This document shows, piece after piece, positions 7,420-49,264 of a DNA stretch of 64,000 nucleotides (position 1 is the stretch's first letter; each line of letters begins with the position of its first letter). The stretch is taken from NCBI RefSeq assembly GCF_028993635.1, contig NZ_CP118631.1, forward strand, positions 4,898,001-4,962,000. The letters run 5' to 3'. The stretch comes from Mucilaginibacter sp. SJ (lineage in GTDB: Bacteria; Bacteroidota; Bacteroidia; Sphingobacteriales; Sphingobacteriaceae). The notes under the pieces are model-generated. The model ran no database searches, had not been told where the DNA came from, and saw only the letters and a list, made by a program, of their open reading frames with translations. The position numbers and the translations under genes are program-made.

Positions 7420-9126
7420 ATGAGCAATAACCAATTAGTGATCGGGGTTGATTACGGGTCTGACTCCGTGCGCTCCGTGATAGTGAACGCGGCCAACGGA
7501 GAAGAAATAGCATCATCGGTATTTAATTACCCCCGCTGGCGCGACGGCAAGTATTGCGTACCTGCCGAAAACCAGTTCCGCCAGCATCCGCAGGATTATA
7601 TCGACGGACTTAAAGCCACCATTAAAGATTGTATTGCACAGGCCGGCGGTGAAGCCATTGCAAAAAATATAAAAGGCATTTCTGTTGATACCACAGGCTC
7701 GACCCCCGTTGCGGTTGATGCTACAGGAATACCGCTTGCCTTAACTCCAGGTTTTGAAACCAACCCCAACGCCATGTTTGTGTTGTGGAAAGATCATACT
7801 TCGGTTAAAGAAGCAGCACAGATCAATGAGCATGCTGCAAAATTTGATACCAATTATTTGAAATATGTTGGCGGTATCTACTCGTCTGAGTGGTTTTGGG
7901 CTAAACTGCTGCATGTACTAAGGGTTGATAAAAGTGTACGTGATGCTGCTGCCTCATGGGTTGAGCATTGCGACTGGATTCCCTTCCTGCTAACCGGCGG
8001 TACCAATGTTAAGGATATTAAACGCGGCCGTTGCTCTGCCGGGCACAAAGCATTGTGGGCCGAGGAATTTAATGGCCTGCCCCCCGAAGAATTTTTTGTT
8101 TCCCTTGATCCGATACTGGCTGGTTTCAGGGATAAATTATATGAAGATACATACACGGCCGATGAAGCAGCCGGAAACCTCAGCGCGGAGTGGGCGGAGA
8201 TATTGGGACTCTCAACCGATGTGATTGTAGGTACCGGCGCTTTTGACGCGCACATGGGCGCTGTTGGCGGCCAGATTGAGCCTTATCACCTGAGCAAGGT
8301 AATGGGCACATCAACCTGCGATATCCTGGTTGCCCCAACATCAGAGATGGAAGGCAAACTGGTACGCGGTATCTGTGGACAGGTGAATGGCTCGGTTATT
8401 CCGGGGATGGCTGGTTTAGAGGCTGGTCAATCGGCTTTTGGCGATACTTATGCCTGGTTTAAAAATATCCTGGCCTGGCCGTTGAATAACCTGCTTTCAC
8501 AATCGCAGGTAATCGACGCGGCCACTGCCGAAGCTTTGAAGGAAGAAATTTCAGAAATGATCATCCCTGAGCTAAGCAGGCAGGCAGCTTTATTACCAAT
8601 TGAAGAAAGCAATGAGCTGGCTATCGACTGGTTTAACGGCCGACGTACACCGGATGCTAACCAGGAATTGAAGGGCGCTATAACCGGTTTAGGTTTGGGC
8701 AGCGATGCACCACGGGTATTCCGTGCGCTTGCCGAGGCCACCTGCTTTGGTGCCAAGAGCATTGTTGATCGCTTTATCAGCGAGGGCATCCCGGTTAAAG
8801 GGATCATCGGTATCGGCGGTGTGGCAAAAAAATCACCTTTCGTGATGCAAATGATGGCCGATGTTTTGGGCATGCCTATCCGCATCCATCAGTTTAAACA
8901 TACCTGCGCTTTGGGCGCTGCGATGTTTGCAGCGGTGGTTGCCGGTATCTACCCAACTATAGAAGAAGCTATGACAGCCATGGGCCGCGGTTTTGACGTA
9001 GTTTATGAGCCAAACATCGCGCTGAAAGAGGTTTATCAGCAACGGTATAACCAATACAGCATACTGGGCAAGTTTGTAGCTGCCGAAGTTGCTTTGAAAA
9101 ATAATCCTGAACTGCAAAATGCTTGA
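7420..9126 (+). CDS. araB: L-ribulokinase AraB
   Basis: FGGY-family sugar kinase of 568 residues that phosphorylates L-ribulose to L-ribulose 5-phosphate with ATP, the second step of L-arabinose catabolism in the cytoplasm. The phosphate-binding loop GVDYGSDSVR is at residues 9-18. Typical AraB features follow: WKDHTS, a YSSEWFWAKLLH segment, the catalytic-base region TGAFDAHMGA, and the C-terminal FGGY-type stretch GIGGVAKKSPFVMQMMADV. Length matches bacterial AraB. It is the first gene of the araB-araD-GH27-araA run and overlaps araD by 8 bases (ATGCTTGA), which suggests translational coupling. The upstream region carries no obvious Shine-Dalgarno sequence. Identification is very secure. 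Confidence 0.96.
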   Translation: MSNNQLVIGVDYGSDSVRSVIVNAANGEEIASSVFNYPRWRDGKYCVPAENQFRQHPQDYIDGLKATIKDCIAQAGGEAIAKNIKGISVDTTGSTPVAVDATGIPLALTPGFETNPNAMFVLWKDHTSVKEAAQINEHAAKFDTNYLKYVGGIYSSEWFWAKLLHVLRVDKSVRDAAASWVEHCDWIPFLLTGGTNVKDIKRGRCSAGHKALWAEEFNGLPPEEFFVSLDPILAGFRDKLYEDTYTADEAAGNLSAEWAEILGLSTDVIVGTGAFDAHMGAVGGQIEPYHLSKVMGTSTCDILVAPTSEMEGKLVRGICGQVNGSVIPGMAGLEAGQSAFGDTYAWFKNILAWPLNNLLSQSQVIDAATAEALKEEISEMIIPELSRQAALLPIEESNELAIDWFNGRRTPDANQELKGAITGLGLGSDAPRVFRALAEATCFGAKSIVDRFISEGIPVKGIIGIGGVAKKSPFVMQMMADVLGMPIRIHQFKHTCALGAAMFAAVVAGIYPTIEEAMTAMGRGFDVVYEPNIALKEVYQQRYNQYSILGKFVAAEVALKNNPELQNA

Positions 9127-9832
9127 TAAAAACATGAGTAAATATGATCATATAAGGCTTAGTGCCTATAATGCCAATATGCAGCTGCCCAAATTGGGCC
9201 TGGTGCTGTTCACTTTTGGTAACGTAAGTGCTGCCGACAGGGAATTAGGTGTGTTTGCGATAAAACCAAGCGGTGTACCTTACGAGGATCTGTCGCCGGA
9301 GAAAATGGTAATCGTTGACTTTGATGGTAACACTGTTGAAGGTGACCTTCGCCCGTCAAGCGATACCAAAACACACGCCGTACTTTATAAACACTGGGAA
9401 GGCATTAACGGTATTGTGCATACGCACTCTACCTACGGCACTGCCTGGGCACAGTCGCAACGTGATATCCCGATTTTTGGTACTACCCATGCAGATCATT
9501 TAACGGTTGACATTCCCTGCGCTCCACCCATGAATGATGAAATGATCAAGGGTAACTACGAGTACCAAACCGGTTTCCAGATCATGGAGTGCTTTGAAGA
9601 AAAAGGCCTGGATTATAAAGAGGTTGAAATGGTGTTGGTGGGTAACCATGCGCCGTTTACCTGGGGCAAAACTGCCGAAAAAGCGGTGTATAACAGCGCC
9701 GTACTGGAAGCCGTAGCCCAGATGGCCTACCTTACCGAGCAAATTGACAGAAGCGCCCCCCGCTTAAAAGATGCGCTGATCAAGAAACATTACGAGCGCA
9801 AACACGGACCTGATTCATATTACGGACAATAA
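9119..9832 (+). CDS. araD: L-ribulose-5-phosphate 4-epimerase AraD
   Basis: Zinc-dependent class II aldolase-fold enzyme of 237 residues that epimerises L-ribulose 5-phosphate to D-xylulose 5-phosphate, linking arabinose to the pentose phosphate pathway. Motifs: GNVS (34-37), KPSGVPY (49-55, phosphate binding), the zinc ligands in HTHSTYGTAW (His101 and His103) and a further His in VGNHAPFTWG. Two starts are possible: ATG 9119, which overlaps the araB stop, and ATG 9134 (MSKYDHIRLS). The first is preferred because the overlap suits coupling. The next gene starts 2 bases after the stop, so the three form one tight operon. Confidence 0.95.
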   Translation: MLDKNMSKYDHIRLSAYNANMQLPKLGLVLFTFGNVSAADRELGVFAIKPSGVPYEDLSPEKMVIVDFDGNTVEGDLRPSSDTKTHAVLYKHWEGINGIVHTHSTYGTAWAQSQRDIPIFGTTHADHLTVDIPCAPPMNDEMIKGNYEYQTGFQIMECFEEKGLDYKEVEMVLVGNHAPFTWGKTAEKAVYNSAVLEAVAQMAYLTEQIDRSAPRLKDALIKKHYERKHGPDSYYGQ

Positions 9833-9834
9833 GC

Positions 9835-11337
9835 ATGAGAAAGATAAAAACGTTTTTAGCTCCCCTCTTGAGAGGGGGCGCGATGGATAAGAGCGGGAGC
9901 AGGGGGGTGTTATGCGCCCGGAATAACAAAAGCGATGAACACACCCCTACACCCCTATCAAGAGGGGAATCGCACTACCCCCGCTTTTTCTCTTTTTTCC
10001 TACTGCTTTGTTTTTTTGCCTGCACCCGTTTATCGGCGCAGGTAGCAGCTACACCGCCAATGGGCTGGAACAGTTATAACTGTTTTGGTTCGGCAGTACA
10101 TGAAGATGAAGTAAAGGCCAATGCCGATTATATGGCAGAGCATTTGAAGCAATATGGCTGGGAGTATGTGGTGGTGGATTTTTTATGGTCGTACGATAAC
10201 CCTCCGGGCAGCAATATCGGCAACCCATTCCAATTGCGTTTGCAGGATGGTTCATACGTGCCATGGTTAACTATGGATAAATGGGGCCGCCTTACACCGC
10301 AGCCTACTAAATTCCCTTCGGCTTTTGGTGGTAATGGCTTTAAACCGCTGGGTGATTATATCCACAGCAAAGGTTTGAAATTTGGCATCCACGTAATGCG
10401 CGGAATCCCAAGACAGGCTGTTTGGTCAAAATCTCCGGTGAAAGGTACCAATGGCATTACTGCCGATATGGTAGCCGATACCAACTCAAAATGCCCATGG
10501 ATGAACCACATGTATGGCTTGGACATGAAAAAGCCCGGTGCACAGGAATACCTGAATTCGCTGCTGGAGCTTTATGCTTCATGGGGAGTTGACTTTATTA
10601 AGGTAGATGACCTTTCGCGCCCGTACAGCAACGCCGAGGTTGAAGGTTATCAAAAAGCTATTCAGCAATGCGGCCGGCAGGTTGTATTAAGCTTATCGCC
10701 CGGCGAGACCCCGGTTGCGCAAGCGGCTCATGCTGCCAAATATGCCAATATGTGGCGCATGGCTGATGACTTTTGGGATAACTGGAAAGAGATCCTTCAT
10801 ATGTTTGAATATGCTAAAAGCTGGGAAGGTGCAAGCGGCCCCGGTCACTGGCCCGATTGTGATATGATCCAGATTGGCAAGCTAAGCAAGCGTGGTCCGG
10901 TAGGGCAGGAGCGCTTCAGCCGCTTTACCGAAGATGAAGAAATTACACATATGACCTTCTGGAGCATTTTCCAATCGCCGCTGATGATAGGGGGAAACAT
11001 GCCCGAAAACCGTGATTTTGAGTTGAAGCTTTTTACCAATGATGAGGTAATTGCGGTAAACCAAAAAGGTGCGCACCCTAAACAGCTATACAAAAAAGAT
11101 GGTGCCATGGTGTGGTATTCGCAGATCCCCGGCAGTAAGGATATTTATGCCGCCTTTTTCAATATTGGCGATGATGACAAATCTGTATCTCTCAATTTCA
11201 AAGACCTGGGCCTGAAAGGCAAGGTAACCGTACGTGACCTATGGAAAAAACAGGATGTTGGCCAGTACAAAACAAGCTATCAGCAAAAAATAAACAAACA
11301 CGGCGCAGCACTATTTAAGCTGTCACCCAAAAACTAA
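9835..11337 (+). CDS. Exported GH27 glycosidase, probable beta-L-arabinopyranosidase or alpha-galactosidase; repeat inserted in N terminus
   Basis: Retaining glycoside hydrolase of family 27, 500 residues. The family opening TPPMGWNSYNCFG is at about 73-85. The likely nucleophile is Asp258 in FIKVDDLSRPY, where alpha-galactosidases read KYDNC, and the acid/base probably lies in WRMADDFWDNW. The DD pair that binds galactose in characterised alpha-galactosidases is VDF here (Asp115, Phe116). Its place between araD and araA suggests a pentopyranose substrate such as beta-L-arabinopyranose, but this is inference. The start is 2 bases after araD. Residues 9-47 are encoded by a repeat (9858-9975), which pushes the hydrophobic signal FFSFFLLLCFFAC to residues 51-63. 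Met17 inside the repeat is an alternative start. Confidence 0.85.
   Translation: MRKIKTFLAPLLRGGAMDKSGSRGVLCARNNKSDEHTPTPLSRGESHYPRFFSFFLLLCFFACTRLSAQVAATPPMGWNSYNCFGSAVHEDEVKANADYMAEHLKQYGWEYVVVDFLWSYDNPPGSNIGNPFQLRLQDGSYVPWLTMDKWGRLTPQPTKFPSAFGGNGFKPLGDYIHSKGLKFGIHVMRGIPRQAVWSKSPVKGTNGITADMVADTNSKCPWMNHMYGLDMKKPGAQEYLNSLLELYASWGVDFIKVDDLSRPYSNAEVEGYQKAIQQCGRQVVLSLSPGETPVAQAAHAAKYANMWRMADDFWDNWKEILHMFEYAKSWEGASGPGHWPDCDMIQIGKLSKRGPVGQERFSRFTEDEEITHMTFWSIFQSPLMIGGNMPENRDFELKLFTNDEVIAVNQKGAHPKQLYKKDGAMVWYSQIPGSKDIYAAFFNIGDDDKSVSLNFKDLGLKGKVTVRDLWKKQDVGQYKTSYQQKINKHGAALFKLSPKN
9858..9975 (-). repeat. Interspersed palindromic repeat, family A, copy 3, inside the GH27 gene
   Basis: Read on the minus strand this begins GTGCGATTCCCCTCTTGA and carries GCATAACACCCCCCTGC, matching copies 1 and 2 (1299-1422 and 20205-20330) at both ends and in the core. 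Here it lies within the coding sequence of the GH27 gene, keeps the frame open, and splits a short basic N terminus from its hydrophobic signal sequence. Confidence 0.85.
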
Positions 11338-12930: not shown

Positions 12931-12950
12931 GAAAAAAATATAAGATGGTC

Positions 12951-13060
12951 GCCGCTCGGCTCCGGCCGAGTGGCAACTATTAAGCGGCCTCTGGCCGCCG
13001 GGATTGGAGTAGCAGGCCAGAGGCCTGGGGATAATAGCCACTCGGCTGGAGCCGAGCGGC
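12951..13060. repeat. Large inverted repeat, 110 bp
   Basis: The left arm opens GCCGCTCGGCTCC and the right arm closes GGAGCCGAGCGGC. Within them, GGCCTCTGGCC pairs with GGCCAGAGGCC, and CCGAGTGGC pairs with GCCACTCGG. The two arms can form a nearly continuous cruciform around a short GC-rich centre. Followed by GGCGG and seven T, so it could also end transcription. Confidence 0.85.
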
Positions 13061-13074
13061 GGCGGTTTTTTTAA

Positions 13075-20176: not shown

Positions 20177-20204
20177 GTTAATTAATCTGGAAAAAGGTAG
20201 GGCC

Positions 20205-20330
20205 GTGCGATTCCTCCCTTGGGAGGGTGTAGGGAGGGGTGTCGTCGAGATGCTCAGTTGTTGCAATGGTGTATAAACCCCTCCCTGCCAATACGCAATC
20301 CTAACGCGCCCCTCCCCAAGGGAGGGAACT
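20205..20330 (+). repeat. Interspersed palindromic repeat, family A, copy 2
   Basis: About 126 bp in the same orientation as copy 1: starts GTGCGATTCCTCCCTTGGGA, contains GTGTATAAACCCCTCCCTGCC, and ends CCCCAAGGGAGGGAACT. It separates the two GH43 genes. Confidence 0.9.
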
Positions 20331-47976: not shown

Positions 47977-48021
47977 CTTATGCTAAGATACCTAAAAAGT
48001 AAAAATATCGCAATTCTACAT

Positions 48022-48078
48022 CACTCCCAGCTTCATCATCCCATAAAACAAACCGGCGCAATGCATGGCTTGTTTTAT
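48022..48078 (-). pseudogene. Detached duplicate of the NUDIX gene 3' end
   Basis: 57 bp matching the end of the NUDIX gene (48719-48775), differing at about five positions that are mostly synonymous. Read on the minus strand it encodes KQAMHCAGLFYGMMKLGV plus one residue and a stop, the same as the live gene except for the last residue. It starts directly after the stop of the broken DUF5615 gene. With the intact copy it flanks the DUF433/DUF5615 module as a direct repeat. Confidence 0.85.
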
Positions 48079-48712: not shown

Positions 48713-49264
48713 TTATAGCACACCCAACTTCATCATCCCATAAAACAAACCAGCGCAATGCATAGCTTGTTTTATTTCGTTATTGAGCAGTAGTTGTTTT
48801 ACTTCTTCAATGGTGTATTCTTCAACAATCAGTTCCTCCAGTTCATCGAGGTGTTGGCCTTGCACCTTTTTGCCGCCTTTGGTAAAGTAGGTAAACGTTT
48901 TATTGTTTGCTGTTGATGGGTTGCCATATACCGTGCAGATCAGTTCAAATTCATCAAACTGGTAGCCTGTTTCTTCCAGTAGCTCGCGGCGTATAGCATG
49001 TATAGGCTCTTCGCCTGCGTCAATCACACCGCCCGGAATTTCGAGCGAGATAACACCTGCCGCATGACGGTATTGTTTCACCATCAATACTTTATTGTCT
49101 TCGGTTATGGCTACCGCGTTGACCCAGTTTGAATATTCAAGTACATAATAATCTTCAACTATTTTGCCATTTGGCATTTCGCATTTATCAATGCGGAGCG
49201 TAGCCCAGGGGCCTTTATGGATGTATGATGATGAAAGTAGTTTCCAGGTGAGATCTTTACTCAT
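48713..49264 (-). CDS. NUDIX hydrolase, ADP-ribose-pyrophosphatase-like
   Basis: NUDIX enzyme of 183 residues that cleaves nucleoside diphosphates linked to another moiety. The complete Nudix box runs from Gly79 to Tyr101 (GVIDAGEEPIHAIRRELLEE then TGY) with REllEE intact. The N-terminal half (EDYYVLEYSNWVNAVAIT, MVKQYRHAAG) and the ICTVYGNPSTANNKTFTYF stretch fit the ADP-ribose/sugar-nucleotide group. The last 19 codons are present again at 48022-48078, past the DUF433/DUF5615 module. Because the live gene is complete, the module entered without destroying it. The exact substrate is open. Confidence 0.93.
   Translation of the reverse strand: MSKDLTWKLLSSSYIHKGPWATLRIDKCEMPNGKIVEDYYVLEYSNWVNAVAITEDNKVLMVKQYRHAAGVISLEIPGGVIDAGEEPIHAIRRELLEETGYQFDEFELICTVYGNPSTANNKTFTYFTKGGKKVQGQHLDELEELIVEEYTIEEVKQLLLNNEIKQAMHCAGLFYGMMKLGVL

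Follow-up and report, generated by a model that had tools for sequence, protein, structure and literature searches.

A dispersed palindromic repeat in frame in the signal-peptide region of a Mucilaginibacter GH27 gene

The GH27 locus and its repeat

The window (the whole stretch of DNA analysed here, 64,000 nucleotides of the Mucilaginibacter sp. SJ genome, G000) carries araD and, immediately downstream, a gene for a GH27 alpha-galactosidase whose signal-peptide region holds a copy of a palindromic repeat, family A. The features of the locus are given below in window coordinates.

9119–9832, + strand: araD (class II aldolase), upstream of GH27, identified as an ORF and by Pfam; its stop (9830–9832) lies 2 bases before the GH27 ATG
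9835–11337, + strand: GH27 alpha-galactosidase preprotein, 500 aa, identified as an ORF and by Pfam (PF16499 Melibiase_2, E 1.2e-26; PF17801 Melibiase_C, E 1.5e-13)
9835–9858, + strand: original GH27 start and first codons, MRKIKTFL; the ATG is present in 10/10 clade orthologues
9861–9992, + strand: family A palindromic repeat in GH27, approximately codons 9–53 (nhmmer E 6.3e-34, model of 25 copies)
9862–9877, + strand: left 16-bp palindrome CCCCTCTTGAGAGGGG, beginning 27 bp after the A of the GH27 ATG
9952–9967, + strand: right palindrome CCCCTATCAAGAGGGG, 90 bp from the left palindrome
9994–10041, + strand: hydrophobic core and end of the GH27 signal peptide (FFLLLCFFACTRLSAQ), located by hydropathy and common to the empty-site orthologues

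The sequence-only reading had placed the GH27 start (ATG at 9835) 2 bases after the araD stop and had described an in-frame insertion of a dispersed repeat in the signal-peptide region, and both descriptions hold (profile E 6e-34, with the frame open). With araD ending this close to the start, the insert had to be translated. It separates MRKIKTFL from FFSFFLLLCFFAC in frame; the top hydropathy window of the protein begins at residue 54, and the cleavage site is a presumed one. The repeat is real, whereas its extent, earlier given as 9858–9975, is corrected to 9861–9992 (132 bp): the end was set at 9992 rather than 9975 because the 3′ tail CGCACNNCCCCCGCTTTTT is common to other copies. The two 16-bp palindromes are near-direct repeats of one another.

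A profile HMM was built from 25 copies of several genomes, G000 among them. Positions 9820–10010 are matched by 38 places in the 6.82 Mb genome at E ≤ 1e-3, the GH27 site included, and a hand-made consensus gave 45 genomic matches at E ≤ 0.01, some of which are fragments or one place found on both strands. We conclude that the repeat match is far beyond chance and that the genome holds roughly 40 copies. Three of them stand in a row, about 150 bp apart, at G000:C1:2699355-2699776 (loci L212, L211 and L207). Among 399 sampled genomes of the family, the matches listed at 1e-6 came from one of 25 genera; a shorter query at E ≤ 1 gave single weak matches (E 0.02–0.5) in three genomes of other genera.

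Family A was compared with known types of element. In a test for the terminal inverted repeats of a MITE, palindromes lay near both ends and their inner arms were complementary, while the tail at the right end was without a left partner. An Rfam scan of 9000–11000 gave no match overlapping the element; the sole hit, a nematode snoRNA model off the element (E 0.86, 21 bits against a cut-off of 80), was rejected. A RAYT/REP origin was likewise rejected, as none of the seven Y1 transposase (Y1_Tnp) loci of G000 had a family A copy in the flanks searched (within 1.5 kb).

The window holds other repeats. Two weaker profile matches, at 1283–1417 and 20191–20322, belong to a sister family B of similar build and are 83% identical to each other over 126 bp. 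Family B, with CCTCCCTTGGGAGG palindromes, ends with the same GTGCGATTCC as family A, and the two families may share one mobiliser. A distinct 47-bp inverted repeat occupies 12950–13061; parts of it match, at 77–92%, several repeats flanking a Y1/TnpAREP-like transposase gene elsewhere (L405), and it may be a RAYT-associated REP pair. Finally, a 62-bp direct repeat, 90% identical, lies at 48017–48078 and 48714–48775 (697 bp apart).

Full, short and empty sites among GH27 orthologues

Orthologues were selected by the mature protein. The mature enzyme was searched in 149 Mucilaginibacter genomes, 89 of which matched at 1e-60; 30 loci from 30 genomes were kept and their N termini read, the remaining 59 matching genomes lying outside this comparison. 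Ten of the 30 form one clade, 94–100% identical in the mature protein. Within it, five species carry the full repeat (G000, G121, G053, G091 and G009), two carry a short form with 30 codons less, in frame (G025, M. gossypii, and G039, M. oryzae), and three have an empty site (G026, M. gossypiicola; G032, M. kameinonensis; G015, M. endophyticus). The frame is open in all ten. The alignment with orthologues proposed in the sequence-only reading thus yields both occupied and empty sites in related species, and its expectation of a normal signal peptide without the repeat is borne out in the three empty-site orthologues, which read MKKINLFFLLLCFFAC[TS]RLSAQ, a normal short signal peptide. The repeat was not seen at the N termini of the other 20 orthologues, outside the clade.

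Both basal branches of the locus tree, built from flanking and mature sequence, carry the insert, full or short. Support for the basal split is 95–100 in the joint tree; trees of single segments have weak branches (47–70) and disagree in places. The five full GH27 copies form a clade of exactly five among about 127 family copies (support 0.84, midpoint root), and a copy outside GH27 (L257 of G009) is closer to some of these than others of the GH27 set are. A single old insertion predating the radiation of the clade is the most likely history on these trees; a recent insertion is disfavoured by the presence of the insert on both basal branches. The three empty sites are nested in the locus tree, and several losses, or a single loss spread by recombination, would explain them if the change ran from filled to empty.

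Similar inserts in other genes

In G000, a family A copy occupies the same part of the signal peptide of lolA (Pfam LolA) as in GH27. Orthologues of lolA were found at 1e-30 for eight of the ten clade genomes, and all eight have an in-frame repeat in the n-region: six of family A (G000, G026, G053 and G032; G009, with a degraded left end and extra sequence; G121, with a tandem pair) and two of family B (G091 and G015, in reverse orientation as judged by eye). No repeat was seen in seven outgroup lolA orthologues. The lolA copies of G000 and G009 group apart from the other lolA copies in the tree, which therefore points to several lolA insertions. Anchor lengths differ modulo 3 between GH27 and lolA, so the arms are not both read in the same frame. 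In G121 lolA (L165, upstream of 1501), the tandem copies place about 105 residues before the hydrophobic core, as judged by hydropathy.

A GH43 gene of G143 has a repeat in frame at the same kind of site; it is the one filled case, and the nine orthologues found at 1e-90 are all empty. The flanks of the GH27 and GH43 copies, compared by eye, are T-rich and without a clear target-site duplication. GH27 and lolA of G000 and GH43 of G143 start 2 nt after the upstream stop or overlap it, and for all three, the gene and its upstream neighbour have Pfam support. The fourth copy inside a gene, in an L,D-transpeptidase of G048 (Pfam YkuD), comes directly after the hydrophobic segment; the end of the closest ORF upstream is about 160 bp distant, and the repeat is absent from the eight orthologues examined (approximately 55–61% identical). 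A rule that copies in genes always lie in the n-region was rejected on this case, and removal by cleavage is not the sole route to tolerance, as this copy follows the hydrophobic segment.

How often copies sit in genes was assessed by a six-frame survey of 122 copies (43 from G000, 36 from G091, 28 from G009 and 15 from G121), in which at least two places are counted twice and the GH27 and lolA copies of G091, G009 and G121 are left out; the places from these three genomes are among the matches listed for a query in one reading frame of the element. The only surveyed copies inside genes were GH27 and lolA of G000 (2 of the 43 in that genome). Fifteen long frames cross the element: these two, one with its own downstream start, two duplicates, and ten that gave no match when scanned with Pfam. 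Long frames at copies in G067, G053, G026, G015, G032, G121 and G091, as well as in G050, G062, G011, G025, G079 and G143, were judged by eye and rejected as spurious or as having their own start after the element. The GH43 and transpeptidase cases are among the matches listed for queries with an appended signal peptide, which favour such cases.

A probable in-frame passenger in the n-region

Taken as a whole, GH27 is probably best explained by a tolerated in-frame passenger in the n-region, with the original ATG in use. A non-autonomous mobile palindromic repeat would have inserted, most likely once, before the radiation of the ten-species Mucilaginibacter clade, at a point between the start codon and the hydrophobic core. 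The element would be permissive to open reading frames, and translation would still initiate at the original ATG. The 40-odd added residues would act as a long n-region and be lost when the signal peptide is cleaved, so that the exported mature enzyme would be the same as without them. The insert would then erode by in-frame steps. The short GH27 forms are exactly 30 residues below their nearest full relatives (69 to 39 and 71 to 41), and a deletion between palindromes 90 bp apart would remove exactly 30 codons; a deletion between the flanking T-runs may remove the whole insert. In G000 lolA the palindromes are spaced by 92 bp, so that such a deletion would be out of frame, and none of the eight lolA inserts is short. 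In G053 the n-region carries a net charge of −1, which counts against this explanation.

The sequence-only reading had left two options, a tolerated long N-region or a start supplied by the repeat at Met17, and the former fits better: the original ATG is found in all ten clade orthologues, close to the araD stop, and Met17 in only two of the five full copies (G000 and G009). As a new start, Met17 was rejected on this count. An in-frame GTG25, however, is present in 5/5 full copies, and a GTG occupies the same element position in GH43, which together with Met17 in two species would fit initiation within the repeat at either codon, giving a moderately long n-region. Starts inside the element also occur in three of the eight lolA inserts (G121, G091 and G015), and G026 has a TTG in the element tail. 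Against this, Met17 is missing from three of the five full copies, both short GH27 forms have lost GTG25 while keeping the original ATG in frame, four of the eight lolA elements (G000, G053, G032 and G009) lack any ATG, GTG or TTG in frame, and the ATG near the araD stop is retained throughout the clade. We therefore regard a start supplied by the repeat as unlikely, and an internal start in the GH27 element is disfavoured by these comparisons.

Among the five full GH27 copies, the element has a pN/pS of 1.00, against 0.04 for the mature enzyme and 0.19 for the stretch that follows the element (the rest of the signal peptide and about 40 mature residues). Read in its two other frames, the element gives 1.16 and 0.93, so this test reveals no constraint on the element residues, but little else. 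The sequence-only reading had held that orthologues carrying the same residues with protein-level conservation would make the insert an ordinary part of the gene; orthologues do carry the insert, but its amino acids show no sign of conservation. An ordinary conserved protein part is disfavoured by the pN/pS of 1.00 and by the empty orthologues, and the insert looks like an inherited passenger instead. Silent divergence (pS) is lower in the element than in the mature gene (0.18 against 0.51), which we cannot explain; constraint at the DNA level and exchange with other copies are options.

The frame, by contrast with the residues, appears to be held. The five full copies align without an indel over 42 element codons, and all have an anchor length of 83 bp; just past those codons the species differ by whole codons. 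As a control we used 13 orthologous pairs outside recognised genes, drawn from eight sets and not independent. The net length differs by a non-multiple of 3 in 7 of the 13 (8 by a cruder count from profile ends), and 10 have at least one gap of such length, with some gaps at the element edge. Identity is 75–92% among control copies and 76–87% among GH27 copies. By stop codons alone, a neutral element remained open across five lineages in 10–21% of simulations; of the 122 family copies, 111 are open in one or more of the six frames, and near-full copies have 1.7 open frames on average. Selection thus seems to retain the GH27 reading frame, while the element residues look unconstrained.

Two further alternatives were weighed. 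The insert could have been adopted for a function, its long n-region slowing export in the manner of extended autotransporter signal peptides, or an RNA hairpin setting GH27 translation in the operon. The insert RNA does fold better than shuffled sequences do (z −2.46), with 2 of 200 shuffles equalling it; seven of ten species retain some or all of the insert, all eight lolA orthologues keep a repeat, and the low silent divergence of the element points the same way. Yet the pN/pS of 1.00 and the identity among GH27 copies, which resembles that of copies outside recognised genes, argue against adoption, as do three species without the insert, two with a short form, and lolA inserts that differ in repeat family and orientation; we consider it highly unlikely. 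That GH27 is decaying or no longer exported, with its frame open by chance in a nearly stop-free element, agrees with the many open frames among family copies but hardly with a mature gene under strong constraint (pN/pS 0.04, and 0.19 just after the element) or with a frame kept in five full and two short forms while copies elsewhere shift, and is scarcely credible.

The best reading of these comparisons is that the signal-peptide n-region tolerates in-frame mobile repeats. A broader proposal is tentative, and we give it somewhat less than an even chance: in compact operons, the n-region of a Sec signal peptide would serve as a safe harbour for mobile DNA. A gene for an exported protein would start on top of the previous stop, with the insert placed between the ribosome footprint and the hydrophobic core; an in-frame repeat there would cost little because it is discarded when the signal peptide is. 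Such sites would time and again gain repeats, exchange one for another, and see them duplicated or shortened, producing signal peptides of approximately 40 to 120 residues.

Several known systems offer comparison, insofar as the accessible parts of the sources describe them. Rickettsia palindromic elements (RPEs) are palindromic, dispersed, approximately 100–150 bp long, and found in frame and translated within genes; their hosts include many metabolic or conserved genes, ORFs contain nearly half of those in R. conorii, and the encoded peptide is conserved (PMC2229807, PMC10969869). Like these, family A is dispersed and palindromic (132 bp, two 16-bp palindromes, 45 matching places in G000) and lies in frame where orthologues are without it (GH27, lolA, GH43 and L,D-transpeptidase). 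Unlike RPEs as described there, it is in genes in only 2 of 43 surveyed G000 copies, its encoded residues lack conservation, and the four genes that carry it encode exported or membrane-anchored proteins struck near the N terminus. The likeness is one of behaviour alone and not of sequence relation to the Rickettsia families. An enterobacterial RU-2/YPAL repeat contributes to the signal sequence of YPO1552 of Yersinia, putatively an exported protein, in the accessible text of Delihas; in GH27, unlike that case, a normal signal peptide exists without the repeat, which does no more than extend the n-region, and the orthologues comprise full, short and empty forms. Autotransporters have very long Sec signal peptides, 79 of 90 sequences sharing one domain organisation (PMC2805444). 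The GH27 signal peptide is similarly very long, but unlike the autotransporter extension as outlined there, its own is without residue constraint and derives from a dispersed repeat, and the protein is a GH27 enzyme rather than a type V secretion protein. REP elements of TnpAREP (RAYT) transposases are short palindromes in many copies per genome (PMC6006769), as is family A, which unlike them is absent from the searched flanks of all seven Y1 loci of G000. A literature search for Mucilaginibacter with "miniature inverted-repeat" found no paper. Among the titles and beginnings of abstracts listed, with most subscription papers outside reach, none besides the Delihas papers concerned n-region insertion.

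In the literature surveyed, as far as it was accessible, it is chiefly from Rickettsia that mobile repeats lying in frame within bacterial genes have been described. The GH27 insert offers a reason why some of them may survive, namely their placement in the discarded part of a secreted protein. It also provides a natural test of the length and variability of bacterial n-regions, which reach about 105 residues before the core in one lolA, and gene callers may set starts wrongly in genes that bear such repeats. Any effect on export would be directly measurable by comparing related species whose sites are full, short or empty. Together with the few other exported proteins that have similar inserts, our comparisons suggest that genes can accommodate mobile DNA in the export tag.
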